DNA from: Arthrobacter sp. Marseille-P9274
GTDB lineage: Bacteria > Actinomycetota > Actinomycetes > Actinomycetales > Micrococcaceae
Assembly (NCBI RefSeq): GCF_946892675.1
Contig: NZ_CAMPOV010000002.1
Location: 310,001 to 374,000, forward strand
Reading direction: 5' to 3'
DNA length: 64,000 nt
In this document: positions 38,406 to 54,881 of the stretch, piece after piece
Numbering within the stretch: position 1 is the stretch's first letter
Layout of the letters: each line of letters opens with the position of its first letter
Position numbers and translations under genes: made by a program
Notes under the pieces: generated by a model
Databases searched by the model: none
What the model saw: the letters and a program-made list of their open reading frames with translations, nothing else
Told to the model about the DNA's origin: nothing

Positions 38406-39398
38406 TTACCCCCGCGAGCTGACGTAGCCGCGTTCCTTGTCCACCTGGTTGGCGAGCGGTTCGCCGGCGAGCCAGCGGTCCAGGTTGGCGAGGAACTGGT
38501 CCGCGAGGGCGTCGCGCCAGCCGACGACGTCGCCGCTCATGTGCGCCGAGATGTGCACGTTCTCCATGGCCCAGAAAGGGTGGTCGGCCGGAAGCGGCTC
38601 CTGATCGAAGACGTCCAGCGAGGCGGCGGCGATCCGGCCGGCCTGCAGCGCCTCGATGAGCGCGGGCTCGTCCACGAGCGCGCCGCGGCCGACGTTGACC
38701 AGGTGCGCCGTCGGCTTCATGGAGGCGAGCACCTCGGCGTTGAGCATCTGCCGGGTCTGGTCCGTCAGCGGAGCGATCAGCACGACGTGGTCCGCCCACC
38801 CGGCCTGTTCGGCGAGCTCGGCGCTGGGCACCACGGAGCCGAAATCGTCGTCGCACTCCCTCGCCGTCCGTCCGGCGCCCCGGACCTCCAGCCCGACCGC
38901 GCGCAGCAGCCGGGCCGTGGCACGGCCGATCCCGCCGGTCCCCACAACGAGCACTCGGGAGCCTGCGGTCGGCGTGAGTTCGCGGTGCATCCACGTGGCC
39001 TCCCGCTGCAGGGCCTTGCTGTGGTGCAACTGTTTGTCATGCGCCAGGATGGACGCCAGCACGAACTCGGCGATCGGCCTGTCGAAGGTGCCGTGCGCGT
39101 TGGTCAGCTCTACCTCGGAGTCGCGCAGCCCGTCGAACAGCATCGTGTCCACGCCAGCGGCCGCCACGTGCACCCACTTCAGCGCGTCCGCCTGCGGCCA
39201 CGCATCGCGCAGCGCCGAGGAAAAGAAGTCCCACAGGAACAGGGCGTCCGCGCCGGCGATCGCCTGCGGCAGCTCGGCGGCGGGGGCAACAACGACGTCG
39301 GCGCGCGCCTTAATCGCACCCAGATTGTAGGGGCGGGGCTGGCCGTCCTCGGCCAGAATCACCACGCGGGGGCGGGACCCCGAAGCTCGATTAGTCAC
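38406..39398 (-). CDS. D-isomer-specific 2-hydroxyacid dehydrogenase
   Basis: A 330-residue NAD(P)-dependent dehydrogenase with GTG start. The Rossmann motif is VLVVGTGGIGRATARLL, the catalytic Arg is in NVGRGALVD, the Glu in DVFDQEPLP and the His in VHISAHMSG. It reduces 2-oxoacids to D-2-hydroxyacids or the reverse. An ATTGTTGACAAT box lies 25 bp upstream, shared with the aminotransferase operon on the other strand, so it is probably part of the same regulon. A possible role is producing or removing a D-hydroxyacid used by the FAD/iron-sulfur dehydrogenase at 41067. Confidence 0.87.
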   Translation of the reverse strand: MTNRASGSRPRVVILAEDGQPRPYNLGAIKARADVVVAPAAELPQAIAGADALFLWDFFSSALRDAWPQADALKWVHVAAAGVDTMLFDGLRDSEVELTNAHGTFDRPIAEFVLASILAHDKQLHHSKALQREATWMHRELTPTAGSRVLVVGTGGIGRATARLLRAVGLEVRGAGRTARECDDDFGSVVPSAELAEQAGWADHVVLIAPLTDQTRQMLNAEVLASMKPTAHLVNVGRGALVDEPALIEALQAGRIAAASLDVFDQEPLPADHPFWAMENVHISAHMSGDVVGWRDALADQFLANLDRWLAGEPLANQVDKERGYVSSRG

Positions 39399-39422: not shown

Positions 39423-39434
39423 ATTGTTGACAAT
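39423..39434. promoter_or_regulatory. Operator box ATTGTTGACAAT (copy 1)
   Basis: Near-palindrome ATTGT-TG-ACAAT. With flanks, it matches the copy at 39737 at 18 of 19 positions. It sits just before the D-hydroxyacid dehydrogenase. Boxes of this TTGT-N2-ACAA form are typical targets of FCD-type GntR repressors. Confidence 0.6.
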
Positions 39435-39736: not shown

Positions 39737-39748
39737 ATTGTTGACAAT
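39737..39748. promoter_or_regulatory. Operator box ATTGTTGACAAT (copy 2) with overlapping -35
   Basis: The box contains TTGACA (39741-39746), a perfect -35 for the aminotransferase operon. A weak -10 (TACACC, 39763) lies 16 bases later, close to ATG 39777, so the transcript may be nearly leaderless. A bound repressor would hide the -35. Confidence 0.6.
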
Positions 39749-39776: not shown

Positions 39777-41057
39777 ATGACTTCACTTAGCCCCGCGCTC
39801 AAGCAGGCCACCCCCGTCGTCGTCGACCACGCCCTCGGCAGCTGGATCTACGGCACGGACGGCAAGGACTACCTGGATTTCACCACCGGCATCGGCGTCA
39901 CCAGCACCGGCCACTGCCACCCGAAGGTGGTCGCCGCGGCGCGGGATCAGGTCGGCAAGATCATCCACGCGCAGTACACCACGGTGATGCACCAGCCGCT
40001 GCTGCAGCTGACGGAAAAGCTGGGTGAGGTGCTGCCGGCCGGGCTGGACTCCGTCTTCTACGCCAACTCCGGCTCGGAGGCGGTCGAGGCCGCGATCCGA
40101 CTGGCCCGGATGGCCACCGGGCGCCCGAACATCGTGGTCTTCCAGGGCGGCTTCCACGGCCGCACCGTCGCGGCGGCGTCGCTGACCACGGCGGGCACCA
40201 AGTTCTCCGCCGGCTTCGCACCGCTGATGGCCGGCGTGCATATGTCCGCCTTCCCCTACGCCTACCGCTACGGCTGGGACGAGGCCACCGCCGTCGAATT
40301 CGCCCTGAAGGAACTGGACTACCTGCTGCAGACCCGCACCGCGCCGAACGACACGGCGGCGTTCCTGATCGAGCCGGCCTTGGGCGACGGCGGCTACCTG
40401 CCCACCCCTCCGGCGTTCATGGAAGGGCTGCGCGAGCGCGCGGACCGGCACGGCATCAAGCTGATTTTCGACGAGGTGCAGGCCGGCGTCGGGCGCACCG
40501 GCAGGTTCTGGGGCCATCAGCACTCGGCGGCGACGCCGGACATCCTGATCACCGCCAAGGGCATCGCCTCCGGCTTCCCGATCTCCGCGATCGCCGCCTC
40601 GACCGAGACCATGTCGAAGGCGTGGCCAGGTTCGCAGGGCGGCACCTACGGCGGCAACGCCGTCTCCGCGGCGGCCGGCGTCGCCACGCTGGAAGTGGTC
40701 CAGGAGGAGGGGCTGGTGGAGAACTCGCGGCTGCGCGGCGAGCAACTGCAGGCCGGGCTGCTCGAGATCCAGGGCAGGTTCCCGCAGATCGGTAACGTCC
40801 GCGGCCTGGGCCTGATGCAGGGCATCGAGTTCACCGGAGCGGACGGCAACCCGGACGCGGCCACGGCCACCGCGGTCCAGCAGGCCACCACCGAGCAGGG
40901 CCTGCTGACGCTGACCTGCGGTCCGGCGGGCAACGTGGTCCGGCTGATCCCGGCCCTCGTGGTCACGCCCGAAGAAATCACCACCGGCCTGGAGCGCTTC
41001 GAGGCGGCCGTCGCCGTCGCCACCGGAGCCGTCCCCGCGGCAGCGACGGGAGCCTGA
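39777..41057 (+). CDS. Class III aminotransferase (4-aminobutyrate/diaminobutyrate type)
   Basis: A 426-residue PLP enzyme. Marker segments are GKDYLDFTTGIGVTSTGHCHP, YANSGSEAVEAAIRLAR, FQGGFHGRT, IFDEVQAGVGRTGRFWG (Asp binding pyridine N) and the Schiff-base lysine in ITAKGIASGFPISA. ATG 39777 has no good ribosome site but is near the predicted transcription start. It moves an omega-amino group to 2-oxoglutarate or pyruvate. With the ectoine-hydrolase-like gene downstream it is a good candidate for 2,4-diaminobutyrate transaminase (DoeD role); GABA is the main alternative. Confidence 0.88.
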   Translation: MTSLSPALKQATPVVVDHALGSWIYGTDGKDYLDFTTGIGVTSTGHCHPKVVAAARDQVGKIIHAQYTTVMHQPLLQLTEKLGEVLPAGLDSVFYANSGSEAVEAAIRLARMATGRPNIVVFQGGFHGRTVAAASLTTAGTKFSAGFAPLMAGVHMSAFPYAYRYGWDEATAVEFALKELDYLLQTRTAPNDTAAFLIEPALGDGGYLPTPPAFMEGLRERADRHGIKLIFDEVQAGVGRTGRFWGHQHSAATPDILITAKGIASGFPISAIAASTETMSKAWPGSQGGTYGGNAVSAAAGVATLEVVQEEGLVENSRLRGEQLQAGLLEIQGRFPQIGNVRGLGLMQGIEFTGADGNPDAATATAVQQATTEQGLLTLTCGPAGNVVRLIPALVVTPEEITTGLERFEAAVAVATGAVPAAATGA

Positions 41058-41066
41058 GCACACCAC

Positions 41067-44000
41067 ATGAGCGAAGCCGTCCTCCCCGACACCACCCGTA
41101 CCCCGGACCGCCGAGCCGGCAACACCGGCGTCGACCGGCCCGCCGTGCTCGCCGCGCTGGCCGCGGCGGGCATCACCGCCGACGCCTCGCCGCGCCGGCG
41201 GGCCGAGTACTCCTTCGACGCGTCCAACTACCGCGTCCCGCCGCTCGCCGTGGTCTTCCCGCGCAGCATCGAGGACGTCGTCGCCGCCGTGAAAGCCTGC
41301 CGCGCCACGGGCACGCCGCTGATCGGCCGCGGCGGCGGTACCTCGATGGCCGGCAACGCGATCGGTCCCGGGGTCGTGCTGGATTTCTCCCGCTACCTGA
41401 ACCGGATCCACCGCGTCGACGAGGCGGCCGGGACGGTTTCGGTGGAGCCCGGAGTGGTGCTGGCCGCGCTCTCCGCCGAGGTGGAGCGCGCGACGGAGGG
41501 ACGCTTCACCTTCGCGCCGGATCCGTCCTCGAAGAACCGCGCCACGGTCGGCGGCGCGCTGGGCAACGATGCGTGCGGCAACCACTCGGTCCGCTACGGC
41601 CGGACGTCTGACCACGTGGCGGAGATCGACGTCGTGACGTCCGACGGCGTTCGGCTCACCGCGGGCGCGGAGGGGCTGCGGGCCACGGATCCCGAGGACA
41701 CCGCCGCCGCGCTGCGCGCCGCGCAGCTCACTGCCGAGCTGAAGGAGCTGGCGCGCGCCAACCTCGCCGGGTTCCGCACCGAGCTCGGCCGGATCCAGCG
41801 GCAGGTTTCCGGCTACCACCTGGCCAACCTGCTGCCGGAGAAGGGCTTCAACGTGGCCCGCGCGCTGGTGGGGTCCGAGGGCACCTGCGCGGTCATCGTC
41901 GGGGCGCGGATGAAGCTGGTGCCGAAGCCCGCGAGCGCGCTGCTGGTCTGCGTCGGCTACCGGGACGTGGTCGAGGCCTCGCGGGATATCGGCACCATCC
42001 TCGAGTTCTCCCCCTCCGCGGTGGAGGGGATCGACGAGGCGATCGTGGACACCATGCGCTTCCGCCGCGGTGACGGCTCCGTGCAGGGCCTGCCGGAGGG
42101 CAAGGCCTGGCTGTACGTCGACCTGGACGGCGACGACCCGGACGAGGTCGCCGCAGAGGCCGAGCGGCTGCTGGCCCGGCTGAGGGAGAACGGCCGGATG
42201 ATGGACGGCCGCCCGGTCCCCGATCCGGTGGAGCGCGCCTCGCTCTGGCGCGTCCGCGAGGTCGGCGCCGGCCTGTCCTCCCGGCTGTCCACCGGCGGCG
42301 AGTCCTGGCCCGGCTGGGAGGATTCCGCCGTTGCGCCCGAAAAGCTGCCGGAGTACCTGGCGGACTTCCGCGACCTGCTGGCCAAGCACGGCCTGACCGG
42401 CGTGATGTACGGACACCTCGGCGCCGGCTGCATGCACATCCGGATCACCTACGACCTGCGCAGCGACGCCGGCCGCGCCGTGTTCCGGGCCTTCTCCCGC
42501 GAGGCCGCGGAGCTGGTGGTCCGGCATGGCGGCTCGCTCTCCGGCGAACACGGGGACGGCCGCGCCCGCTCCGAGCTGCTGCCGATCATGTACTCCGCCG
42601 CGATGCTGAGGGCCTTCGCCGACTACCGCCGGATCTGGGACCCCGCCGGCATCCTCAACCCCGGTTCGCTCACCGATCCGGACCCGCTGGACGCGCACCT
42701 GTCGCTGGACGGCGTGCCGGAGCGGCAGTGGCGCACCAGCTTCGACCTGCGCCCGATCGGCGCGGGCGGCAGCGCCAGCGCCGAGACCGACAACCCGGCG
42801 GACGAGTCCGGGGCCGGCGCCGACCCGTGGGTGCACGCCGTCCAGGGCTGCATCGGCGTGGGCAAGTGCCGCTCGGACACCGCCGGCGTCATGTGCCCCA
42901 GCTACCGCGCCACCCGGGACGAGAAGGACTCCACCCGCGGCCGCGCCCGCGTGCTGCAGGACATGGTCCGCGGCGCCCGCAGCATCGAGGAAGGCTGGCG
43001 CTCCGAGGAGGTCCGCGAGGTGCTGGACCTGTGCCTGTCCTGCAAGGCCTGCTCGAGCGACTGCCCCACCGGCACCGACATGGCGACCTACAAGTCCGAG
43101 TTCTTCGACCACTACTACCGCGGCCGGCGGCGTCCGCTCTCGCACTATTCGCTCGGCTGGCTGCCGCGCTGGCTCAAGCTCACCGGCCGCATCGCGCCGC
43201 TGGTCAACGCCGCGCTGGACACGCCGCTGGGCAAGCTGGCGGCGGCCGCGGGCGGCATGACCACGAAGCGCGCGCTGCCGAAGTTCGCCGGTGCCGGCGA
43301 ATGGTGGAGGCAGGTGGCCGCGGCCGGGCTGCAGCGCGGAAAGCACGACGGCGGTGTCCGGCCGGTCGCGGGCGGCACCTTGGAAGGCGAGTACGACGGC
43401 GGTGCACGCCACCGCGCGGACCGCACCTCCGGCGTCGTCCTCTTTGTGGACACCTTCACGCGCGGCTTCCGCCCGGAGGTCGCCGGTGCCGCCGCGCGGG
43501 TGCTCGCGGGCGCCGGACAGCCGGCCGAATGCTCGGCCGACGCGTGCTGCGGGCTGACCTGGATCTCCACCGGCCAGCTGGACACCGCGAAGAAGCTGCT
43601 CCGCGGGGCCGTCGAGGCGCTCGACGACGGGACGGACCGGCCGATCGTCGTCGTGGAACCCAGCTGCGCCGCCGCGCTGCGCAAGGACCTGCCCGAACTC
43701 GTGCATACCGAGCAGGCCCGCCGGGTGGCCGCCCGGGTGCGCAGCTTCGCCGCCTATGTGGGCGAGCTGGCCGCGGGCGGCTGGAAGCCGGCGCCGGCGG
43801 AACCGCTGCCGGAGCAGGTGGTGCTGCAGACGCACTGCCACGAGTACGCCGTCTTCGGCGCCGCAACCCAGCGGCAGGCCCTGGCCGCCGTCGGCATCGA
43901 AGGCGTCACCGATGCGACCGGCTGCTGCGGTGTCGCCGGCAACTTCGGCTTCGAGAAGCAGCACTACGACGTGAGCATGCAGGTGGCCGAGCACGCCCTG

Positions 44001-44168
44001 GCCCCGGCCCTGCGCGGCAGCGGCACGGACGTGCCGGTCCTGACGGACGGCTTCTCCTGCGCCATGCAGGTCAACCAGCTCGCCCCGGACAGACCCGGCC
44101 GGCACCTCGCCCAGCTGCTCGATCCCAAACCTGACCAGACCACTGACAAGAAGGACTCTCCCGCATGA
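41067..44168 (+). CDS. FAD-linked oxidase with iron-sulfur domains (YdiJ/D-2-hydroxyacid dehydrogenase type)
   Basis: A 1033-residue two-part enzyme. Residues ~50-500 form the FAD_binding_4 plus FAD-oxidase C module (GRGGGTSMAGNAIGPGVVLD, NDACGNHSVRYGRTSDHV, HLGAGCMHIRI, SGEHGDGRARSE). Then come two cysteine clusters (CIGVGKCRSDTAGVMCPSY and CLSCKACSSDCPTGTDM) for [4Fe-4S] centres, and two CCG domains (CCGLTW, CCGVAGNFGFEK). Size and order match E. coli YdiJ, a D-2-hydroxyglutarate dehydrogenase. It passes electrons from a D-hydroxyacid to the respiratory chain. A Gly/Asp/Arg-rich linker before the CCG part has no known role. Confidence 0.88.
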   Translation: MSEAVLPDTTRTPDRRAGNTGVDRPAVLAALAAAGITADASPRRRAEYSFDASNYRVPPLAVVFPRSIEDVVAAVKACRATGTPLIGRGGGTSMAGNAIGPGVVLDFSRYLNRIHRVDEAAGTVSVEPGVVLAALSAEVERATEGRFTFAPDPSSKNRATVGGALGNDACGNHSVRYGRTSDHVAEIDVVTSDGVRLTAGAEGLRATDPEDTAAALRAAQLTAELKELARANLAGFRTELGRIQRQVSGYHLANLLPEKGFNVARALVGSEGTCAVIVGARMKLVPKPASALLVCVGYRDVVEASRDIGTILEFSPSAVEGIDEAIVDTMRFRRGDGSVQGLPEGKAWLYVDLDGDDPDEVAAEAERLLARLRENGRMMDGRPVPDPVERASLWRVREVGAGLSSRLSTGGESWPGWEDSAVAPEKLPEYLADFRDLLAKHGLTGVMYGHLGAGCMHIRITYDLRSDAGRAVFRAFSREAAELVVRHGGSLSGEHGDGRARSELLPIMYSAAMLRAFADYRRIWDPAGILNPGSLTDPDPLDAHLSLDGVPERQWRTSFDLRPIGAGGSASAETDNPADESGAGADPWVHAVQGCIGVGKCRSDTAGVMCPSYRATRDEKDSTRGRARVLQDMVRGARSIEEGWRSEEVREVLDLCLSCKACSSDCPTGTDMATYKSEFFDHYYRGRRRPLSHYSLGWLPRWLKLTGRIAPLVNAALDTPLGKLAAAAGGMTTKRALPKFAGAGEWWRQVAAAGLQRGKHDGGVRPVAGGTLEGEYDGGARHRADRTSGVVLFVDTFTRGFRPEVAGAAARVLAGAGQPAECSADACCGLTWISTGQLDTAKKLLRGAVEALDDGTDRPIVVVEPSCAAALRKDLPELVHTEQARRVAARVRSFAAYVGELAAGGWKPAPAEPLPEQVVLQTHCHEYAVFGAATQRQALAAVGIEGVTDATGCCGVAGNFGFEKQHYDVSMQVAEHALAPALRGSGTDVPVLTDGFSCAMQVNQLAPDRPGRHLAQLLDPKPDQTTDKKDSPA

Positions 44169-45664
44169 CAACTGAGACCGCCCCCCGCACCGACGCAGCA
44201 ACCTCGCAGGAGGCGCGCGACGCCGTCGCCAAGGTCAGCACCGGCGTCTTCATCGACGGCGAGTGGAGCGAATCCGCCTCCGGCGCCCGCTTCGACGTCG
44301 TCAATCCCGCCACCGAGGAAGTCGTCGCCACCGTGGCCGACGGCGGCCCGGAGGACGCCCGCCGCGCCATCGAAACCGCCGGCCGGGTGCAGAAGGAGTG
44401 GGCGAAGACCGCGCCGCGCGAGCGCAGCGAGATCCTGCGCCGAGCCTACGACCTGATCATGGCGCGGCAGGACGAGCTGGCGCTGGTGATGACCACGGAG
44501 ATGGGCAAGCCCTTCGCCGAGGCCAAGGGCGAGGTGGCCTACGCCGCCGAGTTCTTCCGCTGGTTCTCCGAGGAGGCGGTGCGGATCGGCGGCGACGTGA
44601 CCACCACGGGCGACGGCAAGAACCGCATCCTGGTTTCCAAGGAGCCCGTCGGCCCCTGCGTGCTGGTCACCCCGTGGAACTTCCCGCTGGCCATGGGCAC
44701 CCGCAAGATCGGCCCGGCCATCGCCGCCGGCTGCACCATCGTGTTCAAGCCGGCCAACCTGACCCCGCTGTCCTCGCTGGCGCTGGCGGACATCCTCATC
44801 GAGGCCGGTCTGCCCAAGGGCGTGCTCAACGTCGTCTGCACGTCGAAGGCCTCCTCCGTGGTGACGCCGTGGATGGAGAGCGGCATCGCCCGCAAGGTCA
44901 GCTTCACCGGCTCCACCGAGGTGGGCGTGAAGCTGCTCGAGCAGGCGGCCAAGCACGTCATGCGCTCCTCGATGGAGCTCGGCGGCAACGCGCCGTTCAT
45001 CGTGTTCGAGGACGCCGACCTGGACCGTGCCGTCGAGGGCGCGGTCGCCGCCAAGATGCGCAACATGGGCGAGGCCTGCACCGCGGCCAACCGTCTGTTC
45101 GTGCAGCGGCCGGTCGCCGAGGAGTTCGCCCGCAGACTGGCCGCGCGGCTCGGCGCACTCACGGTGGGGGACGGCGCGAAGGATGGCACCGACGTCGGAC
45201 CTTTGGTGGAAGAGAAGGCCCTGGTGAAGGTGCAGGAACTGGTGGACGACGCCGTCGCCAAGGGCGCCACCGTGGTCTGCGGCGGCTCCCGTCCGGAACG
45301 CCCCGGCTACTTCTACTCCCCCACGGTGCTTTCCGACGTCGATCCGGCCGCGGACCTGATGAGCGAGGAGATCTTCGGCCCGGTGGCCCCCGTCATCCCC
45401 TTCGACACCGAGGAGGAAGTCACCCGGCTGGCCAACGACACCCCGTGGGGGCTGGTCGGCTACCTGTTCACGCAGGACGTGGACCGAGGCTTCCGGATGG
45501 GCGAGGCGCTGGAGGTCGGCATGGTCGGCCTGAACACCGGCGTCGTGTCCAACCCGGCGGCGCCGTTCGGCGGCATCAAGGCCTCCGGGCTGGGCCGCGA
45601 GGGCGGGCGCGTGGGGATCGAGGAGTTCCTCGAGTACAAGTACATGGCCGTTCCACGCGGCTGA
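44165..45664 (+). CDS. NAD(P)-dependent (succinate/aspartate) semialdehyde dehydrogenase
   Basis: A 499-residue aldehyde dehydrogenase. PWNFPLAM holds the oxyanion Asn, FTGSTEVG the cofactor site, MELGGNAPF the general-base Glu, and GEACTAANR the catalytic Cys. The overall sequence is closest to succinate-semialdehyde dehydrogenases such as GabD (KEPVGPCVLVTPWNFPLAMGTRKIGPA). Its start overlaps the preceding stop (ATGA). In an ectoine pathway this would be the aspartate-semialdehyde dehydrogenase step (DoeC role); in GABA use, succinate semialdehyde oxidation. Confidence 0.9.
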   Translation: MTTETAPRTDAATSQEARDAVAKVSTGVFIDGEWSESASGARFDVVNPATEEVVATVADGGPEDARRAIETAGRVQKEWAKTAPRERSEILRRAYDLIMARQDELALVMTTEMGKPFAEAKGEVAYAAEFFRWFSEEAVRIGGDVTTTGDGKNRILVSKEPVGPCVLVTPWNFPLAMGTRKIGPAIAAGCTIVFKPANLTPLSSLALADILIEAGLPKGVLNVVCTSKASSVVTPWMESGIARKVSFTGSTEVGVKLLEQAAKHVMRSSMELGGNAPFIVFEDADLDRAVEGAVAAKMRNMGEACTAANRLFVQRPVAEEFARRLAARLGALTVGDGAKDGTDVGPLVEEKALVKVQELVDDAVAKGATVVCGGSRPERPGYFYSPTVLSDVDPAADLMSEEIFGPVAPVIPFDTEEEVTRLANDTPWGLVGYLFTQDVDRGFRMGEALEVGMVGLNTGVVSNPAAPFGGIKASGLGREGGRVGIEEFLEYKYMAVPRG

Positions 45665-45696
45665 ACATTTCCCGTCTAGACATCACGGAGGCTTGA

Positions 45697-46902
45697 GTGG
45701 AACCAAACGGCATCGCCCCCATGCTCTTCTCCATCGGGGAGTACGAGGCGCGGCTCGCAGCGGTCCGGCTGCGCATGGAGGACCAGGGCCTAAGCGCCCT
45801 GATCGTCACCGATCCGGCCAATATCTATTACCTGACCGGCTACAACGCCTGGTCCTTCTATACTCCGCAGATGGTGTTCGTGCCGGCCCAGGGCGACATG
45901 ATCCTCTTCACCCGGCAGATGGATGCCAACGGCGCGTTCCGCACGGCCTGGCTGCCGGAAGAGTGCATCGTCGGCTACCCGGAGAGCTACATCCACCGGC
46001 CGCACATCCACCCCTTCGACTGGGTCGCGTTCGCGCTGCGCGAGCGGCACCTGATCGCGCCGGCGGCCAAGGGCTGCGTGGGCCTGGAGATGGACTCGCA
46101 CTTCTTCGCGCCGAAGGCCTACCGTGCACTGGTCAACGCCATCCCGGAGTGGACGCTGGTGGACAGCTTCGAGCTCGTGAACTGGGTGCGGTCCGTGAAG
46201 TCGCCCGCGGAGATCCAGTTGATGCACAAGGCCGCGGTGATCACCAACAATGCGATGGCCGCCGCCGAGGAGGCCATCCGTCCCGGGGCCCGGCAGTGCG
46301 ACATCGCGGCCGCGATCACGGAGGCGCAGATCTCCGGCACCGAGGAATTCGGCGGCGACTACACGGCCATCGTGCCGCTGCTGCCGACGGCGGAATCCGC
46401 CGACACCCCGCACTTGACCTGGAGCGAGCGGCGGCTGCGCGGCGATGAGGCGGTCGTCGTCGAACTCGCCGGCGCCTACAAGCGCTACCACGTCCCGCTG
46501 AACCGGACCTTCCTGCTGGGCCAGCCGTCCGCGGAGCTGAGCCGCGTGGCCGAAGCCACGGACGCCGGCCTCAACGCAATGCTGGACGTGATCGGCGCCG
46601 GCGTGCCCGTCCGGGAGGTCGCCGCCGTGTGGAACCGCACCATCTTCGAGTACGGCTACGAAAAGGACTCGCGGCTGGGCTACTCGATCGGCATCGGCTA
46701 CCCGCCGGACTGGGGCGAGCGCACCATCAGCATCCGCAGCGAGGACGAGCGGGGCCTGGCCGAGAACATGACCTTCCACCTGATCTGCGGGATGTGGATG
46801 GACAACTACGGCTACGGCCTCTCCGAATCCATCCGCGTCACGGCGACCGGCGTCGAAACCTTCACCACCTACAAGCGGGGCCTGCTCCCCATCAACAGCT
46901 AG
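45697..46902 (+). CDS. doeA: Ectoine hydrolase-like M24-fold protein (DoeA/EutD)
   Basis: A 401-residue creatinase/aminopeptidase-fold protein with GTG start after GGAGG. Segments such as DPANIYYLTGYNAWSFY, DANGAFRTAWLPEECIVGYP, VNWVRSVKSPAEI, FGGDYTAIVPLLP, PHLTWSE, YKRYHVPLNRTFLLG, EKDSRLGYSIGIGYPPDWGER and ENMTFHLICGMW closely resemble ectoine hydrolases as I remember them. The two Asp metal ligands of M24 peptidases are absent: VVVELAGA (253-260) and HVPLNRT stand in their place, as in ectoine hydrolases. It would open ectoine to N-acetyl-diaminobutyrate. A creatinase-like or peptidase role is the alternative. Confidence 0.78.
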   Translation: MEPNGIAPMLFSIGEYEARLAAVRLRMEDQGLSALIVTDPANIYYLTGYNAWSFYTPQMVFVPAQGDMILFTRQMDANGAFRTAWLPEECIVGYPESYIHRPHIHPFDWVAFALRERHLIAPAAKGCVGLEMDSHFFAPKAYRALVNAIPEWTLVDSFELVNWVRSVKSPAEIQLMHKAAVITNNAMAAAEEAIRPGARQCDIAAAITEAQISGTEEFGGDYTAIVPLLPTAESADTPHLTWSERRLRGDEAVVVELAGAYKRYHVPLNRTFLLGQPSAELSRVAEATDAGLNAMLDVIGAGVPVREVAAVWNRTIFEYGYEKDSRLGYSIGIGYPPDWGERTISIRSEDERGLAENMTFHLICGMWMDNYGYGLSESIRVTATGVETFTTYKRGLLPINS

Positions 46903-46910
46903 GACTTCCT

Positions 46911-48155
46911 ATGACCCTGCGCAACCTTCCCCTCGGGGCACGGGCCGGCAACCTGGTCGGCTCCGTCATCGACTCCAGCACGTCGCTGCTGGCCAAGCAG
47001 ACCCACGACATCGTGCGCTTCGCGATGGGCGCCCCGGCGGAGGAAGCCGTGCCCGTCGAGCTGTTCAACAGCGTGCCCGCCGCCGTCTACGACGCCTCCT
47101 CCTACACCTACGGCGCCACGGAAGGCGAGCCGCACCTCATCGACGCGCTCACGGACTATTTATCGACGACGGCGGATCCCACCGCGCGTGAACGCATCAC
47201 CATCACTTCGGGCGGCATGCAGGGGCTGGACCTGGCCTTCAAGATCTTCGTCGACCCCGGCGACCTGGTGGTCGTGGAGAGCCCGACGTACACCAACGGC
47301 TCGGCCACCGCGCTCAGCTACGGCGCGGAGCTGCTGGAGGTCCCGGTCGACGAGGACGGCATGGACGTGGACCAGCTGGAGTCCCTCGTGGCCGCGTACG
47401 GCAAGACGCCGAAGGCCATCTACACCATTCCCAACTTCCAGAACCCGTCGGGGACGACGCTCTCGCTGCCGCGCCGCAAGCGGCTGCTGGAGCTGGCGCA
47501 TGAGTGGAACACCGTGATTGTCGACGACGACCCGTACGGCCTGCTGCGCTTCGAGGGCGAGGAGCTGCCCACCTTCAACCAGCTCAGCCCGGACGATCCG
47601 CTGATCTTCTCGGTCCGCACCTTCTCCAAGATCCTCGCCCCCGGCCTGCGCGTGGGCTGGGTGGAGACCGACCCGGAGCTGCAGCGCCTGGTCATCAACG
47701 CCAAGCAGGCCATGGACACCTGCACCAACGTGCCGGCCCAGCACCTGGTGGCCGAGTTCATCCTGCGCGGCGGCCTGGACGACCACCTGGCCTGGCTGCG
47801 CCGCGAGTACCAGGGCCGCAAGCACGCAATGCTGGAGAGCATCGGGCGGCATCTCGGGGACCGCGTGCGCACCACGAACCCCGACGGCGGTTTCTTCCTC
47901 TGGGTGACGCTGCAGGGCGAGGACGCGAAGATCAACACCCAGCGGCTGTTCGACATCGCGCTGGCCGAGGGCGTCGCCTTCATCCCGGGCCCGGCGCTCT
48001 CCCCCGGCGGCCGGTTCACCGACGCCTTCCGGCTCTGCTTCGCCTCCTCGTCGCCGGAGCGCACCGAGACCGGCATCGTCCGCCTCGCCGCGGCCATCGA
48101 CAAGGCCCGCGCCGAGGTCTCCTTCGGCACGGCAGCCTCCTCGGGAGCGCGGTAG
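46911..48155 (+). CDS. PLP-dependent aminotransferase, class I/II (2-aminoadipate/MocR-type catalytic domain)
   Basis: A 414-residue fold-type I aminotransferase. It shows YTYGATEGEPHLIDALTDYL, ITSGGMQGLDLAFKIFVDPGD, ESPTYTNG, YTIPNFQNPSGTTLS, VDDDPYGLLRF and the Schiff-base lysine in VRTFSKILAPGLRVGWV. These are features of the LysN/2-aminoadipate group, which also supplies the catalytic part of MocR regulators; no helix-turn-helix is attached here. It lies 8 bp after the hydrolase gene. It may be a second transaminase of the pathway, for example for diaminobutyrate or aspartate. Confidence 0.86.
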   Translation: MTLRNLPLGARAGNLVGSVIDSSTSLLAKQTHDIVRFAMGAPAEEAVPVELFNSVPAAVYDASSYTYGATEGEPHLIDALTDYLSTTADPTARERITITSGGMQGLDLAFKIFVDPGDLVVVESPTYTNGSATALSYGAELLEVPVDEDGMDVDQLESLVAAYGKTPKAIYTIPNFQNPSGTTLSLPRRKRLLELAHEWNTVIVDDDPYGLLRFEGEELPTFNQLSPDDPLIFSVRTFSKILAPGLRVGWVETDPELQRLVINAKQAMDTCTNVPAQHLVAEFILRGGLDDHLAWLRREYQGRKHAMLESIGRHLGDRVRTTNPDGGFFLWVTLQGEDAKINTQRLFDIALAEGVAFIPGPALSPGGRFTDAFRLCFASSSPERTETGIVRLAAAIDKARAEVSFGTAASSGAR

Positions 48156-49424
48156 GTGGCGCCGGCCCCCCGCGAGGCAGCCCAGCGCGCGCTGACTGCC
48201 ACCGAGCAAGCCGTCCTCGACGCCGTCGACCTGGGCCGGATCGTAAACCTCGCCGCCCGGCTCATCGGGGCCGGCGGCGAGAACCCCGGGGACACCGAGG
48301 CCGCCACCGTCGCCGTGCTGGAGGCCGCGGCCCGCGAGCTGGGCCTCGAAGTCGCCATCCAGCCCGCGGCCCCCGACCGCCCGAACATCCTCGTCACGCT
48401 GCCGCCGCCCGCTCCCGCCGGGACGGCTGCGGAGACCGGCGTCCCGGGCCCGGAATCCGGCGCGGCGCGCGGCCTGATGTTCCTCGGCCACTCCGACGTC
48501 GTCCCGGCGGGGCCCGGCTGGAGCCGCCAGCCCTTCCAGGCCGCCGTGGAAAACGGCCGGCTCTACGGGCGGGGCGCCACGGACATGAAGGGCGGCCTCG
48601 CCGCGGTCCTCGGCGCCATGGCCGCGCTCAAGCAGGCGGGCGCCGAGCTCTCCGGCCCCGTCACGCTGGTCTGCACCGTGGACGAAGAGGACCTCGGCCT
48701 CGGCATCCGGACGCTGGCCGCCTCGGCCCTCCCCCATGACTACCTCGGCTGCGTCGTGGCCGAACCCACGGACCTGGAAACCGTCGTCGGCTGCCGCGGC
48801 GACAGTTACCTGGAACTGGAAATCACCGGCCGCCCCGCGCACTCCGGCCGCCCGGCGGACGGGCGCAACGCCATCGCCGCCGCCGCCCGGATCTGCGAAC
48901 TCATCCGCGCGGACCACGAGCGGCTGCAGCAGGACCAGGACGACCTCCTCGGAGCCGGCAGCTGGAATGTCGGACTGATCGAAGGAGGCCAGGGCACCTC
49001 GGTGGTGGCGCCGTCGTGCTCCCTCTCCCTGGACCGCCGCCTGATGCCGGACGATGACCCGGACCGCATCCTCGCGGACCTGCTGGCCCGGATCCGCGAA
49101 GCCGGCATTGACACGGACGGGATTTCAGTCACCGGCCGCGTCAGCATGCAGATGCCAGGCTTCCGCACCCCCGCGGACCACCCGCTGGTCGCCGCGGCCG
49201 TGGCCAGCGTGGAAGCTGCCGGGGGCAGCACCCGGATCGGCGGCTGGACGGCCGCGTGCGACGGCGGCTTCATCGTCCGCGACTTCGGCGTGCCTGCCAT
49301 TGTGCTCGGCCCGGGCGGCCTCAACGACCAAGCCCACCAGGCGGACGAATCCGTCGGCCTGGACGAACTGTCCATCGCCGCGCGTGCCTACGCCCTGCTC
49401 TGCCTGCGTACCCTGACCAACTAG
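48156..49424 (+). CDS. M20-family deacylase (ArgE/DapE type)
   Basis: A 422-residue zinc amidohydrolase with GTG start directly after the preceding stop. Metal ligands are His in FLGHSDVVPA, Asp in YGRGATDMKGG, Glu-Glu in CTVDEEDLG, the Glu of VVAEPTDLE, and the terminal His in NDQAHQADESV. The dimerisation lid begins RGDSYLELEITGRPAHSG. ArgE/DapE enzymes remove acyl groups from amino acids. In this operon it could remove acetate from N-acetyl-2,4-diaminobutyrate, the job done elsewhere by the unrelated DoeB/EutE. That role is inferred from position only. Confidence 0.88.
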   Translation: MAPAPREAAQRALTATEQAVLDAVDLGRIVNLAARLIGAGGENPGDTEAATVAVLEAAARELGLEVAIQPAAPDRPNILVTLPPPAPAGTAAETGVPGPESGAARGLMFLGHSDVVPAGPGWSRQPFQAAVENGRLYGRGATDMKGGLAAVLGAMAALKQAGAELSGPVTLVCTVDEEDLGLGIRTLAASALPHDYLGCVVAEPTDLETVVGCRGDSYLELEITGRPAHSGRPADGRNAIAAAARICELIRADHERLQQDQDDLLGAGSWNVGLIEGGQGTSVVAPSCSLSLDRRLMPDDDPDRILADLLARIREAGIDTDGISVTGRVSMQMPGFRTPADHPLVAAAVASVEAAGGSTRIGGWTAACDGGFIVRDFGVPAIVLGPGGLNDQAHQADESVGLDELSIAARAYALLCLRTLTN

Positions 49425-49433
49425 GAGCACTCC

Positions 49434-50891
49434 ATGAGCACTTCCGAATCCCTGCGCAACAACCAGCCGGAGCCCAAAACGGCGCCGGGCGCCGAACCGG
49501 GCACGCCCGAGGGCAAGCGCACGCTCAACCGCGCCATCCTCGGCTCGGCCCTGGGCAACGCCGTCGAATGGTTCGACTACGGCGTGTACGGCTACCTGAC
49601 GATCTTCATGGCGGTGAACTTCTTCGGTTCGGAGGAGGGCGACGGCGGCCTCGGCGTCACGCTGACCCTCGCCACCCTCGCGCTGTCCTTCCTGGTCCGT
49701 CCGCTCGGCGGCATCATCCTCGGGCCGCTCGGCGACAAGGTCGGCCGGCAGAAGGTCATGGTGCTGACGGTGATGATGATGACCCTGGCCACCGGTGCCA
49801 TCGGCCTGCTGCCCACGCTGCAGACCGTCGGCGCCCTGGCCCCGGTCCTGCTGCTCCTCTGCCGGCTGGTACAGGGCTTCTCCGCAGGCGGCGAGTACGG
49901 CGGCGCCGCGGTCTACATGGCCGAATCCGCCCCGGACCGACGCCGCGGCTTCCTCGGCTCCTTCCTGGAATTCGGCACCACCGTCGGCTTCATGCTGGCC
50001 GCCGTCGTCTGCACCACGCTGATCACCGTAGCCGGCGAGCAGGCCGTCCAGGACGGACTCTGGCGCATCCCGTTCCTGCTGACCATCCCGCTCGGCCTGA
50101 CCGCGCTGTGGATCCGCACCCGGTTGGGCGAAGCCCCGGTCTTCTCCGAGGCCTCCGCACAGCACGAGACCACCCGTTCCCCGCTGCGCCACGTGATCGT
50201 CCACAACTGGCGCCAGATCCTCGTCCTCGCCGGCTTCGTGGTGCTGCTCAATGTCGCGTTCTACCTGATCCTCGGCTACATGCCGACCTACCTGAGCGGA
50301 CAACTCGGCCACAGCACGGCCCAGGGCAACTGGATGCTGGTGGGCATCATGGCGCTGATGCTGGTGGCGATCCCGCCGATGGGCGCGCTGTCCGACCGCG
50401 TCGGCCGCAAGCCGCTGCTGCTGGCAGCCGCCGCCGGGTATGCGCTGCTCTCGGTCCCCGCCATCATGCTCCTCGGCATCCCCAACCTGCTGCTGCAGTT
50501 CGTCGGCCTGGCCGTCCTCGGCCTGCTGCTGGTGGTCCTGGTCTCCTCGGTCTCCTCCACCCTGCCCGCGCTGTTCCCCACCGCCGTGCGCTACAGCGGC
50601 TTCGCCATCGGCTACAACTTCTCGACGGCGTTCTTCGCCGGCCCGTCCCAGACCGTCGCCAACCAGCTGATCGAAACCACCGGCAACCAGCTCGTGCCCG
50701 GCTGGTACATGGCCATCGCCGGCGTCATCGGCTTCGTCAGCATCCTCTGCATGCGCGAGACCTCGCAGGCCACCCTGCGCGGCGAAGAACTCCCCGGCCT
50801 CCCGGAATCCACCGGGCTGCCCAGCCTGCGGCATGTCGAGTTCAACCGCGAGGACGCCCGCGCCCGCCGCGAGGCCTTCCACAGCGCCTAG
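49434..50891 (+). CDS. MFS transporter, metabolite:H+ symporter (ProP-like)
   Basis: A 485-residue 12-helix MHS-family symporter. The ProP-type opening is LGNAVEWFDYGVYGYLTIFM, then FLVRPLGGIILGPLGDKVGRQKVM, LCRLVQGFSAGGEYGGAAVYMAE, RRRGFLGSFLEFGTTVGF and GALSDRVGRKPLLL. ProP proteins take up proline, betaine and ectoine. As the last gene of the operon, 9 bp after the M20 gene, it likely imports the operon's substrate, which fits the ectoine reading. Terminator at 50899. Confidence 0.9.
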   Translation: MSTSESLRNNQPEPKTAPGAEPGTPEGKRTLNRAILGSALGNAVEWFDYGVYGYLTIFMAVNFFGSEEGDGGLGVTLTLATLALSFLVRPLGGIILGPLGDKVGRQKVMVLTVMMMTLATGAIGLLPTLQTVGALAPVLLLLCRLVQGFSAGGEYGGAAVYMAESAPDRRRGFLGSFLEFGTTVGFMLAAVVCTTLITVAGEQAVQDGLWRIPFLLTIPLGLTALWIRTRLGEAPVFSEASAQHETTRSPLRHVIVHNWRQILVLAGFVVLLNVAFYLILGYMPTYLSGQLGHSTAQGNWMLVGIMALMLVAIPPMGALSDRVGRKPLLLAAAAGYALLSVPAIMLLGIPNLLLQFVGLAVLGLLLVVLVSSVSSTLPALFPTAVRYSGFAIGYNFSTAFFAGPSQTVANQLIETTGNQLVPGWYMAIAGVIGFVSILCMRETSQATLRGEELPGLPESTGLPSLRHVEFNREDARARREAFHSA

Positions 50892-52389: not shown

Positions 52390-53136
52390 TTACGCTACCG
52401 GCTCCGCAGCCGCGCCCGCGGCACCCGGCACCACGCCGCCGTCGTTCTCCGTTGCGTTCTCCAGCGCCCGCATGCTGCTGGAAATCTTCTCCACCGCATC
52501 GTCCATGTGGTGTGCCAGCAGCTTGTGGAACAGCGGCACGTTCGCCGCCCCGATCGCATCGGCGATGGCCTCGTGCTCGGCCAGCCGGTCCTCCGGGGTG
52601 TAGCCGGTGTCCTCGAGCGCCGCCATGCACATCCGGGTCTCCGTCATCAACGTCTGGTGCATGCGCGAGAGCCGGCCGCTCTCGGCCATCCTGACCAGCA
52701 GCTCGTGGAACTCGATGTCCAGATCGCTCAGGACGCTGCCCCGCTCGCCGGCGGCGACGGCCTGCGCCATCTTGTCCGTCACGGTCCGCAGCGCGGCCGC
52801 AACCTTCTCGTGGATGCCGACGACCTCGATAACCTTCAGCCCGGCGGCGCGTTCGACGGCGGTGCGCGCCAGGTACATGTCGGCAATATCGTCCGGGCCC
52901 AGTTCCGTCACGAAAATGCCGCGGTTCCGTATGCTGACCAGCAGGCCTTCCTGGGTCAGCCGCTGCATCGCCTCGCGCAGCGGCCCCCGGCTGACGCCCA
53001 GCTCGCGGGCCAGGTCCGCCTCGCCGAGCTGCTGGCCCGGCTGCAGTTCGCCGTGCCCGATGGCGTAGCGCAGCTTGCGCGCGATGATGGCCGGCGTGGA
53101 CTCCTGGACCAGCGGCTCGATGAATCGGTGTGCCAT
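52390..53136 (-). CDS. GntR-family regulator, FCD subfamily, probable regulator of the 39-51 kb operon
   Basis: A 248-residue FadR-like repressor. The wHTH is IARKLRYAIGHGELQPGQQLGEADLARELGVSRGPLREAMQRLTQEGLLV and the FCD helical domain carries DIEFHELLVRMAESGR and EHEAIADAI metal/ligand-type histidines. ATTGCAGACAAT at 53196-53207, 60 bp before its start, differs by two bases from the boxes at 39423 and 39737. That predicts autoregulation and control of the ectoine-type operon. Known proteobacterial ectoine clusters use MocR-type EnuR instead. Confidence 0.87.
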   Translation of the reverse strand: MAHRFIEPLVQESTPAIIARKLRYAIGHGELQPGQQLGEADLARELGVSRGPLREAMQRLTQEGLLVSIRNRGIFVTELGPDDIADMYLARTAVERAAGLKVIEVVGIHEKVAAALRTVTDKMAQAVAAGERGSVLSDLDIEFHELLVRMAESGRLSRMHQTLMTETRMCMAALEDTGYTPEDRLAEHEAIADAIGAANVPLFHKLLAHHMDDAVEKISSSMRALENATENDGGVVPGAAGAAAEPVA

Positions 53137-53195: not shown

Positions 53196-53207
53196 ATTGC
53201 AGACAAT
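53196..53207. promoter_or_regulatory. Operator-like box ATTGCAGACAAT before the GntR gene
   Basis: Shares ATTG and ACAAT arms with the two ATTGTTGACAAT boxes. The spacing and palindrome centre are the same. Confidence 0.5.
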
Positions 53208-53383: not shown

Positions 53384-54502
53384 CTAGGCGTTGACCAGCT
53401 CGCCGGCTTCGGCCAGCTCCAGGCCGAAGGCTTCGGCTACCGAGCGGTGGCGGACCTGGCCTGCCGAGACGTTCAGGCCCGCGGCAAGCGCCGGATCCTT
53501 GGCCAGCGCCGCGTCCACGCCCAGGTCGGCAAGCAGCGCGGCGTAGCGCAGCGTGACGTTGGTCAGCGCGTAGGTGGAGGTGTTTGCCACGGCGCCCGGC
53601 ATGTTGGCCACGCAGTAGAAGAGCGAGTTGTGCACGGTGAAAGTCGGATCCTCGTGCGTGGTCGGCCGGCTGTCGGCGAAGCAGCCACCCTGGTCCACCG
53701 CGATGTCCACCAGGACGCTGCCGGGCTTCATCTTCGCGACCAGCTCGTTGCTGACCAGCTTCGGGGCCTTGGCGCCCGGGATCAGGACAGAGCCGATCAC
53801 GAGGTCAGACTCCACCACGGAACGCTCGACCTCGAGGCTGTTGGAGGCCACGGTCTTCAGGCGCCCGGAGTACTGGGCGTCCAGCTCGCGCAGCCGGTTG
53901 ACGTTGATGTCCAGGATGGTCACGTCCGCGCCCAGGCCCAGCGCCATAGCGGCCGCGTTGGTGCCGGCCACGCCCGCACCCAGCACGGTGACCTTGGCCG
54001 GCCGGACGCCCGGCACGCCGCCGAGCAGCACGCCGGGGCCGCCGGCGGGCTTGGTTAGGGCCGTGGCGCCGACCTGCACGGAGAGCCGCCCGGCGACCTC
54101 GCTCATCGGGGCGAGCAGCGGCAGGGCACCGTTGGCGCTCTGCACGGTTTCATAAGCGATGGCGGTGACGCCCGAGTCGAGCAGCGCACGCGTCAGCTCC
54201 GGCTCGGCGGCCAGGTGCAGGTAGGTGAAGAGAACGAGCCCGTCCCGGAAGTGGCGGTACTCGGAGGCGATCGGCTCCTTGACCTTCATGACCATCTCGG
54301 CCCGTGCCCAGACCTCGTCCGCACCGACCACGATCTCGGCACCGGCAGCGACGTACTCGGCGTCCTCGATGCTGGAGCCAACTCCGGCGCCGGCCTCGAT
54401 CAGCACCTGATGCCCGCGGCCACGCAGTTCGTGCACGCCGGAGGCCGTGATGGCCACGCGGAATTCGTTGTTCTTGATTTCCTTGGGAACGCCGATGATC
54501 AT
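53384..54502 (-). CDS. ald: Alanine dehydrogenase
   Basis: A 372-residue alanine dehydrogenase of standard length. The N-terminal MIIGVPKEIKNNEFRVAITASGVHEL, catalytic Lys in MVMKVKEPIASEY, FTYLHLAAEPELT, the NAD motif VTVLGAGVAGTNAAAMALGLGADV and SGRLKTVAS-type region are diagnostic. It converts L-alanine to pyruvate and ammonia (NAD-linked) or the reverse. It is divergent from the PucR-type regulator, with which it shares a 379 bp control region. Alanine made by transaminases of the neighbouring operon could be a source of substrate. Confidence 0.95.
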   Translation of the reverse strand: MIIGVPKEIKNNEFRVAITASGVHELRGRGHQVLIEAGAGVGSSIEDAEYVAAGAEIVVGADEVWARAEMVMKVKEPIASEYRHFRDGLVLFTYLHLAAEPELTRALLDSGVTAIAYETVQSANGALPLLAPMSEVAGRLSVQVGATALTKPAGGPGVLLGGVPGVRPAKVTVLGAGVAGTNAAAMALGLGADVTILDINVNRLRELDAQYSGRLKTVASNSLEVERSVVESDLVIGSVLIPGAKAPKLVSNELVAKMKPGSVLVDIAVDQGGCFADSRPTTHEDPTFTVHNSLFYCVANMPGAVANTSTYALTNVTLRYAALLADLGVDAALAKDPALAAGLNVSAGQVRHRSVAEAFGLELAEAGELVNA

Positions 54503-54727
54503 CGGGGTGCCTCCGTTTTCGTGGGTGGAATTCTGTGCCGGAACCGGCCGTGAATCAACTGTAGAGGCGGAAATTACGACGCCGGCCGCTCCCCTTCGCG
54601 GGCACCGCGGCGCCGGTTGTGGCAGCGTGCGGCGACCCGCCGCCGTCGTCCGTTCCCGAAGCCGCCATGATCCGCGGATCGGCGCGGAAGATCAGGCCTC
54701 AACCGGTCCCGCCAGCCGAACAGGCGC

Positions 54728-54743
54728 TGTGATGGCTACCACA
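54728..54743. promoter_or_regulatory. CRP/GlxR-like site TGTGA-N6-CCACA
   Basis: TGTGATGGCTACCACA, within a longer exact GCTGTG/CACAGC palindrome (54726-54745). The 379 bp gap 54503-54881 between ald and the PucR gene contains no other gene; this and the palindrome at 54763 are its clearest elements. Confidence 0.5.
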
Positions 54744-54762
54744 GCTATGCTGGAAGCTGCAA

Positions 54763-54776
54763 TCGACAAATGTCGA
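54763..54776. promoter_or_regulatory. Palindrome TCGACA-AA-TGTCGA
   Basis: A perfect six-base inverted repeat with a two-base centre, about 105 bp before the PucR-type start and 20 bp after the CRP-like site. It may be the operator of that regulator for ald and for itself. Confidence 0.45.
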
Positions 54777-54881
54777 GTCGCGGCGCAGCAACTGTCGCCC
54801 GTTGTCTACGTGGCCCGGACCATTCCCGGGCCGCCGTCGACCGGGGCATTGCCGCCAGGATCCGTTTCTACAGGAGAGTGC

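Follow-up and report, generated by a model that had tools for sequence, protein, structure and literature searches.

A candidate variant ectoine-degradation operon with an ArgE/DapE-type deacylase in Arthrobacter sp. Marseille-P9274

Results

A seven-gene array and a divergent dehydrogenase gene

We analysed a stretch of 64,000 nucleotides (positions 310,001 to 374,000 of contig NZ_CAMPOV010000002.1, hereafter the window) from the 4.78 Mb genome of Arthrobacter sp. Marseille-P9274, in which seven plus-strand genes at 39777-50891 follow one another in the order AT3-YdiJ-SSADH-M24-AT2-M20-ProP. An original prediction, made from the DNA letters and their open reading frames, had read this array as a variant ectoine-degradation operon. 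AT3 (39777..41057; PF00202, Aminotran_3) is a class III aminotransferase of the GabT/PuuE-like omega-transaminase kind and is followed by a YdiJ-like D-2-hydroxyacid dehydrogenase with flavin adenine dinucleotide (FAD) and Fe-S domains (41067..44168; PF01565 [FAD_binding_4], PF02913 [FAD-oxidase_C], Fer4 and CCG) and by an SSADH-family semialdehyde dehydrogenase (44165..45664; Aldedh, TIGR01780). Next come an M24-fold protein resembling the ectoine hydrolases DoeA and EutD (45697..46902; Creatinase_N plus Peptidase_M24), AT2, a fold-type I α-aminotransferase of MocR/LysN or 2-aminoadipate-transaminase likeness (46911..48155; PF00155, Aminotran_1_2), an M20 deacylase of the ArgE/DapE type (48156..49424; PF01546 and PF07687 [M20_dimer]) and a ProP-like importer of the major facilitator superfamily (49434..50891; 403 bits on the ProP model NF007927, cut-off 544). 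Open reading frames and family matches bear out this order on one strand, and because neighbours overlap by up to 4 bases or lie at most 32 bases apart, the seven genes likely constitute a single transcription unit. The original prediction listed these genes correctly and overlooked a D-isomer-specific 2-hydroxyacid dehydrogenase gene (2HADH; 38406..39398, minus strand; PF02826/PF00389) that diverges from the array and shares with it an upstream palindrome, ATTGTTGACAAT. One copy, a putative operator for 2HADH, lies at 39423..39434, 25 bp upstream of that gene, and another, also a putative operator, at 39737..39748, 28 bp before AT3.

The M24-fold protein sides with ectoine hydrolases

As predicted, the M24-fold protein groups with DoeA/EutD and not with peptidases or creatinases. 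At 395.6 bits, ectoine_eutD/DoeA (TIGR02993) is its best NCBIfam model, followed by DoeA2, and no peptidase model exceeds 67.3. Among PDB chains, those of Halomonas elongata DoeA (6twj/6twk) lead with 329 bits and prolidases do not get beyond 75.4. In a tree of 53 rows, drawn up without creatinases, the window protein falls in an actinobacterial clade (27 rows, support 100/99) nested in a group of 44 rows (96/99). Its other members are the DoeA clade (11 rows, 100/99, with H. elongata DoeA), Priestia and haloarchaeal rows and two rhizobial rows, the order of clades within the group being unresolved. PepQ, Xaa-Pro types and other M24 proteins fall outside this group, and so does G316, a row curated as DoeA2. 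A Foldseek search, which did include creatinases, with the predicted model (mean predicted confidence, pLDDT, of 79, weak at 325-347) returned 6twk first, then 6yo9 and 6twj, with query-normalised template-modelling (TM) scores of 0.86-0.88 at 38-40% identity; creatinases and prolidases reached at most 0.77 at ~20% identity. A peptidase or creatinase is thus ruled out by profile, PDB sequence, tree and predicted-fold comparisons, and by the same comparisons the window protein is DoeA-like, though no certified DoeA.

An M20 deacylase in a genome with no AstE-type DoeB above cut-off

Known ectoine catabolism employs an AstE/AspA-type deacetylase (DoeB/EutE) after the hydrolase, and the original prediction had supposed that an M20 enzyme replaces it here. 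Searching the genome of the window's host with the AstE-type DoeB/EutE model TIGR02994 gave no match at E ≤ 0.1, and the AstE/AspA fold PF24827 gave a single match of 18.6 bits (cut-off 25), which reads like part of an M14-type carboxypeptidase. The control searches were positive (Rhizobium DoeB at 617.7 bits; Escherichia coli and Haloferax above the PF24827 cut-off), and a DoeB gene elsewhere in this genome was consequently dismissed, neither model having a match above its cut-off. When the DoeB model was run against 38 genomes or records, 13 matched at 1e-5, five genomes of the genus among them, and the sole one to pass the cut-off was the Rhizobium control.

In the M20 protein, residues H112, D114, D143, E177, E178, E203 and H394, which we take to be the M20 catalytic residues, are invariant in nine orthologues. 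On the ArgE/DapE model TIGR01910 (cut-off 217.6) it scores 205.4 and its orthologue in locus L121 scores 234.1, above the cut-off; the predicted model (pLDDT 88) finds DapE and ArgE as its nearest structures by Foldseek. ArgE takes acetate off N-α-acetylornithine, a substrate one carbon longer than N-α-acetyl-2,4-diaminobutyrate (α-ADABA). A housekeeping ArgE or DapE as the main role was discarded because the window-type M20 is absent (no match at E ≤ 1e-80) from all 333 family genomes that lack the M24 gene.

An M20-type deacetylase at the DoeB step is not new in itself, because NCBIfam already curates one, DoeB2 (NF038260). A gene in genome G316 passes this model (575.5 over 550) and stands beside a diaminobutyrate transaminase gene and a DoeA2 gene (NF038259; 733 over 575). 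A dehydrogenase-like frame comes next, so that the order matches doeBDAC of Methylomicrobium alcaliphilum. In the cited part of a study of that organism (PMC7192451), its doeB mutant accumulates N-α-acetyl-2,4-diaminobutyrate and its DoeB is 22% identical to H. elongata DoeB; from gene order and this identity we infer that it is of the DoeB2 type. DoeB2 and the window M20 share family and differ in kind, the former matching an M20-family amidohydrolase model and the latter resembling ArgE/DapE. The 25 best models of the window M20, which extend down to 71.6 bits, do not include DoeB2 (cut-off 550). In a tree of M20 proteins found in company with EutD-like genes (22 rows, DoeB2 not included), the window type forms one clade (11 rows, 97/99), an uncultured-actinobacterial type a second (four rows, 100/100) and a Priestia-Halopiger-Mesorhizobium-rhizobial type a third (five rows, 100/100). 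Two rows fall outside all three; the tree resolves the inner order only in part and has flagged long branches. On the DoeB2 model (cut-off 550), scores of 215-227 were obtained for the Priestia and Mesorhizobium proteins. By these placements the EutD-accompanying M20 proteins form at least three supported clades, and the window M20, of ArgE/DapE type by its model and fold matches, is a lineage apart from DoeB2. The idea of a non-orthologous replacement is therefore well supported by the lack of an AstE-type DoeB above cut-off and by the tie of M20 to M24, and what it loses is the novelty of an M20 enzyme at this step.

M24 and M20 genes occur together across the family

We surveyed 395 genomes of the family with thresholds of E ≤ 1e-60 for M24 and E ≤ 1e-80 for the window-type M20 (four M20 candidates scored per genome), and we examined 80 named loci, the best 80 of 264 relatives. 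Of the 80 loci, 52 are non-Brevibacterium and 28 Brevibacterium; flanks of 8 kb or more on either side are available for 66, of which 43 are non-Brevibacterium. Neighbourhood counts were taken from stop-to-stop open reading frames or genome searches, and genome and locus counts are given uncorrected for kinship. M24 occurs in 62 genomes and M20 in 59: both in 59, M24 only in three, M20 only in none, and neither in 333. M20 lies directly downstream of M24 in 58 of the 59, with a gap of 1.2-1.9 kb in 55 and of 23-41 bp in three. The order M24-AT2-M20 on one strand within 4 kb recurs in 39 of the 43 full-flank non-Brevibacterium loci, and AT2, M20, AT3, YdiJ, SSADH and 2HADH are all together in 28 of the 43. 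Because the order recurs in so many loci and M20 is found only with M24, the grouping of these genes exceeds chance. The M24 of Arthrobacter mangrovi NBRC 112813 is 98% identical to the window protein; this strain and Gordonia polyisoprenivorans NBRC 16320 are examples of cultured carriers.

Some clade members show other arrangements. In L068-L072, at ~50% identity, M24-AT2-M20-ProP is accompanied by a different aminotransferase (25-28% to AT3) and, close by, an SSADH (47-50%) and an alanine dehydrogenase, with neither 2HADH nor YdiJ seen nearby. The Brevibacterium M24 genes (28 loci, L133-L174) mostly stand without AT2 or M20 and the palindrome is found at none of the 28; in one of them, L160, M24 adjoins an Lrp-type regulator and a PRK06541-type aminotransferase. 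A plasmid search with the window M20 gave no match at 1e-40.

A 12-bp palindrome marks the operon, 2HADH and a distant unit

The pattern ATTGTNNACAAT is itself palindromic, and every site therefore registers on both strands. The host genome has three such sites, all of them reading ATTGTTGACAAT, and none of the reversed-pattern control. Besides the sites before 2HADH and AT3, the third and last lies at C2:445761 (L227, 6268-9851), between a DUF3830 gene and a EutA-like gene of the arylmalonate decarboxylase/Asp-Glu racemase family, which is followed by putative second EutA-like and amidase-like genes, named by resemblance alone. Among the 52 named non-Brevibacterium loci we counted 100 copies in 47 loci, compared with 0.2 expected from five dinucleotide shuffles, and in L121 and L145 (Glaciibacter, Homoserinimonas) the palindrome stands at the start of EhuB, which encodes an ectoine binding protein.

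We then compared 40 of the 62 genomes with M24 with 40 of the 333 without. The exact 12-mer is present in 34 of the former and 10 of the latter (108 sites, versus three for the reversed pattern), and 2HADH at at least 60% identity in 32 and four, respectively. The palindrome lies 25-155 bp upstream of 31 of these 32 2HADH genes from M24-positive genomes. By contrast, it precedes only two of the 11 best 2HADH matches of M24-negative genomes and is absent before the close 2HADH orthologues of four such genomes (G432, G530, G423 and G419). On these counts, 2HADH appears to belong to the core of the operon's regulon.

A candidate reader of the palindrome is encoded 1.5 kb past the operon by a GntR/FCD regulator gene (52390..53136, minus strand; PF00392, PF07729), upstream of which lies a one-mismatch palindrome, ATTGCAGACAAT (53196..53207). 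GntR/FCD proteins as a family habitually read sites of this sort, and a relative at at least 38% identity is found in 36 of the 43 full-flank non-Brevibacterium loci. The protein probably controls the operon, the divergent 2HADH gene and the distant EutA-like unit through ATTGTTGACAAT. Beyond the regulator gene lie an alanine dehydrogenase gene (53384-54502, minus strand; above its curated cut-off) and, divergent from it, a PucR-type regulator gene (54585-56108, plus strand), a pair also placed beside the operon of near relatives, L051-L054 among them.

Ectoine as the probable substrate

One tie to ectoine is EhuB, which exceeds its cut-off of 190.9 near an M24 of the same clade in all three loci scored (258.4 in Glaciibacter L121, 258.4 in L063 and 200.1 in L057). 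The Ehu importer is absent from the window operon, which has the ProP-like carrier instead, the host genome itself not having been searched for EhuB. That genome does have an ectoine synthase gene, flanked by what read as ectB- and ectD-like genes. Pairs of M24 and M20 also occur with recognised ectoine genes beyond the window's own clade. Among uncultured actinobacteria (L073-L077 and L090), DoeA proteins 58-65% identical to Rhizobium DoeA are adjoined by an M20 gene in five of six loci (L073-L077), and Ehu genes lie upstream in L073-L075 and L090; in L074, the one scored with curated models, DoeA reaches 632 bits (cut-off 613), EhuB 222 (cut-off 191) and the M20 protein next to doeA 356 (cut-off 297.7) on an acetylornithine deacetylase model. 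A plasmid of Mesorhizobium sp. AR02 (L200) carries EhuB-A-C-D-M24-M20-EutA-like-2HADH-LysR-amidase, its M24 grouping with the DoeA clade and scoring 608.4 of 613 on TIGR02993; upstream of this cluster are flavin mononucleotide (FMN)- and Ldh-type 2-hydroxyacid oxidoreductase genes. In Priestia, M24 and M20 stand together with eutB and a cyclodeaminase gene.

We interpret the operon as a variant uptake-and-breakdown system for ectoine, possibly also for 5-hydroxyectoine, with a probability of roughly 0.75. The ProP-like carrier would import ectoine; with similar confidence we propose that M24 would open its ring to give α-ADABA and that M20, standing in for an AstE-type DoeB, would deacetylate this to 2,4-diaminobutyrate (DABA). 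AT2, AT3 and SSADH would remove both nitrogens and deliver a C4 acid to the tricarboxylic acid cycle. Substrate and catalytic steps are deduced here from kinship, synteny and co-occurrence.

Several observations weigh against this interpretation. The window M24 stays under both curated DoeA cut-offs (395.6 of 613 on TIGR02993 and 213.7 of 575 on DoeA2, NF038259). Of 61 diagnostic positions, which 12 DoeA-type rows share without exception and distant M24 proteins seldom have, it keeps 33 compared with 3-9 in the distant proteins; this comparison cannot decide function, because the "distant" rows include G316, curated as DoeA2. No M20 lies near the EhuB-adjacent M24 of L057, the M20 of that genome adjoining a second M24 copy. 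Brevibacterium M24 genes of the same clade mostly lack an M20 nearby (present in four of 23 full-flank loci), and the window-type M20 was absent at 1e-40 from both Brevibacterium genomes searched. EutB and EutC were found in none of the 80 named loci, the host genome not having been searched for either, and M24 plus M20 clusters of Rhizobium etli and Bradyrhizobium carry no Ehu annotation. An AstE-like protein of 239-250 bits (cut-off 402.7) is present in five of the genomes of the genus searched, which number seven when the host is counted. The distant palindrome unit has amidase-like and DUF3830 genes for which ectoine breakdown has no obvious need, and its EutA-like protein scores 101 bits against a cut-off of 318. 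Three of these points, the scores of M24 below both cut-offs, the content of the distant unit with its amidase-like, EutA-like and DUF3830 genes, and the rhizobial clusters, would also suit an M24 clade whose substrate is not ectoine but a related cyclic amidine or amide, the operon then serving that compound. We consider such a substrate unlikely, given that EhuB passes its cut-off in the same clusters, behind the same palindrome, and that the sequence and overall predicted fold of M24 are closest to DoeA.

Two exits from 2,4-diaminobutyrate

With ectoine retained as the probable substrate, the enzymes that would act after deacetylation can be compared with those of the known pathway, all of whose roles the original prediction considered fillable. 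SSADH scores 589 bits on TIGR01780 (cut-off 646) and, by pairwise identity (47%), resembles Ssd of a Leisingera ectoine cluster. AT3, by contrast, cannot safely be labelled DoeD, because its nearest PDB chains are GABA aminotransferases (γ-aminobutyrate; GabT/PuuE) and it is only ~29% identical to Atf/DoeD of the Leisingera cluster; it scores 250 of 401.6 on TIGR00709 (dat) and 398 of 552 on the acetylornithine aminotransferase family model NF004426. AT2 finds the α-aminotransferases 1x0m, 3aov, 1wst and 2egy as nearest PDB entries, and its Pfam matches include no DNA-binding domain. The remaining two enzymes both belong to D-2-hydroxyacid families. The best NCBIfam model of 2HADH is Dhydh_Halo (205 bits, cut-off 400), and the YdiJ-like protein, at 419 bits on the YdiJ model (cut-off 1350), has D-lactate dehydrogenases as nearest PDB chains, with D-2-hydroxyglutarate dehydrogenase among its six matches. 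YdiJ at at least 60% identity occurs in 48 of 62 M24-positive and 14 of 333 M24-negative genomes among the matches listed, which extend down to ~627 bits and include several, mostly from M24-negative genomes, that span only about the first 740 residues, so that shorter partial ones may add to these numbers; it lies within 20 kb of M24 in 43 of the 44 genomes with both on one contig. In M24-negative genomes (L207, L208 and L209), neighbouring YdiJ and 2HADH genes (64-79% identical) stand at sites where no ectoine genes are seen and no palindrome precedes 2HADH. We do not favour plain GABA degradation amid unrelated neighbours, since 2HADH keeps company with M24 and M20 and shares the palindrome with AT3. 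The YdiJ-like protein and the divergent 2HADH point to a step that is absent from the known pathway.

In the textbook exit, AT3 would take the part of DoeD and turn DABA into aspartate semialdehyde, SSADH would take that of DoeC and carry this on to aspartate, and AT2 would be an aspartate aminotransferase yielding oxaloacetate, with 2HADH and YdiJ as accessories, for instance a 2-oxoacid/2-hydroxyacid redox pair. We place this exit, accessories included, a little short of even odds. These are the reactions required by the known pathway as set out in the cited part of PMC3187862; SSADH resembles Ssd, and L068-L072 possess an aminotransferase, an SSADH and an alanine dehydrogenase and show no 2HADH or YdiJ nearby. 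On the other hand, AT3 is nearer GabT than Atf, and the palindrome before 2HADH in nearly all M24-positive carriers is left without a reason.

Alternatively, AT2 would transaminate DABA at the α carbon to 4-amino-2-oxobutyrate, 2HADH would reduce this to D-4-amino-2-hydroxybutyrate, AT3 and SSADH would convert it to D-malate and YdiJ would oxidise D-malate to oxaloacetate; early reduction would protect the reactive keto acid, and in clusters with EutB or IlvA, hydroxy-DABA would join at 4-amino-2-oxobutyrate. We put this exit forward tentatively. It employs every enzyme of the unit and suits the nearest relatives of each, α-aminotransferases for AT2, GABA aminotransferases for AT3 and D-2-hydroxyacid enzymes for 2HADH and YdiJ. 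The palindrome upstream of 2HADH in M24-positive genomes and the enrichment of YdiJ there, near M24, are likewise consistent with it, as is the order M24-M20-EutA-like-2HADH on the Mesorhizobium AR02 plasmid. Further, three haloarchaeal plasmid records (L092, L093 and L205) have 2HADH, M20 (annotated as amidohydrolase; assigned via Pfam in one record and by 74-82% identity in the other two) and IlvA within ~10 kb of M24, L092 and L093 also having a YdiJ-like gene and L205 a BCCT gene; these clusters may constitute a hydroxyectoine route. D-2-hydroxyglutarate dehydrogenase of Pseudomonas aeruginosa oxidises D-malate in the cited part of PMC10034468, whereas E. coli YdiJ is reported as inactive on D-malate in that of PMC9504171. 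Other findings run counter to a D-malate exit, each step of which is deduced. YdiJ-2HADH pairs stand away from ectoine genes in M24-negative genomes, and the pair must therefore have another use; eight of 40 M24-positive genomes lack 2HADH at at least 60% identity; L068-L072 show neither gene nearby; unrelated genes separate M24 from the 2HADH-YdiJ pair in two haloarchaeal records; and some loci have no AT2 between M24 and M20 (the three with gaps of 23-41 bp; L106 and L146).

The two exits above place M20 directly after M24. In a third scheme, AT3 would transaminate α-ADABA itself, SSADH would form N-acetylaspartate and M20 would deacetylate the latter to aspartate. The match of AT3 to the acetylornithine aminotransferase family model and the ArgE/DapE likeness of M20 would both suit N-α-acetyl diamino acid chemistry. 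Because M24 and M20 stay together while AT3 often lies apart from them, we argue that M20 acts in the step directly after M24, and since 2HADH and YdiJ would also be left over, this scheme seems to us quite improbable.

Discussion

The core of the original prediction, a variant ectoine operon, stands with three corrections: an M20-type DoeB was already known as DoeB2, AT3 is not safely a DoeD, and YdiJ and 2HADH suggest an extra step. Compared with the doeABXCD/eutABCDE operons of H. elongata and Ruegeria pomeroyi, the window operon shares a DoeA/EutD-like M24, an SSADH-like enzyme and a class III aminotransferase, and some of its relatives share an ectoine importer protein. It differs in that the genome has no AstE-type DoeB/EutE above cut-off and an ArgE/DapE-type M20 in its place, in having a GabT-like aminotransferase plus an additional LysN-like one, 2HADH and YdiJ, and in the GntR/FCD gene and palindrome beside it in lieu of EnuR and AsnC. 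The resemblance extends to putative clusters of Bacillales (pucR-eutBCD-atf and abgB-thrA-adh), described in the cited part of Boas Lichty et al. 2026 (PMC13188858), which likewise have a EutD homologue, no EutE and abgB nearby. In the Priestia clusters an M20 gene occupies the place of abgB, and the window M20 is of a different lineage, with other partner genes.

That study found putative Gram-positive and archaeal ectoine clusters through EutD homology. Within the part cited, eutE is missing from the Bacillaceae examined, the roles of abgB, thrA and adh are unproven, ectoine consumption by Gram-positives and archaea is described as not previously demonstrated, and its own Gram-positive clusters are called tentative until tested; the terms M20, Micrococc- and Arthrobacter do not occur in its main text. 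An earlier survey detected clusters through direct juxtaposition of eutD and eutE in 363 genomes (PMC8739950, cited part), an approach by which a cluster with M20 instead of EutE would be missed. Among the matches listed in a search of titles and the starts of abstracts, we found no published description of this operon, and in the literature searched no paper combined any two of the terms ectoine, 4-amino-2-oxobut- and 4-amino-2-hydroxybut-; both searches lay mostly within the non-subscription literature.

Against this background, what is known is an M20-type deacetylase at the DoeB step, and what is new is a different M20 lineage and perhaps a different downstream route. The operon very probably breaks down ectoine with a deacetylase unlike those of well-studied bacteria, a conclusion drawn from comparative genomics, and it predicts an enzyme for the empty deacetylase step. 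The 12-bp site defines a small regulon. We tentatively suggest a second ectoine route, spread among actinobacteria that include Arthrobacter, Gordonia, Williamsia and Glaciibacter and perhaps also among haloarchaea, which would exit via D-malate and not aspartate and would have a deacetylase type and a GntR/FCD regulon of its own; such an exit would possibly be a new downstream route, distinct from the aspartate exit. The operon is a concrete and widespread candidate for the use of ectoine by cultured soil actinobacteria.

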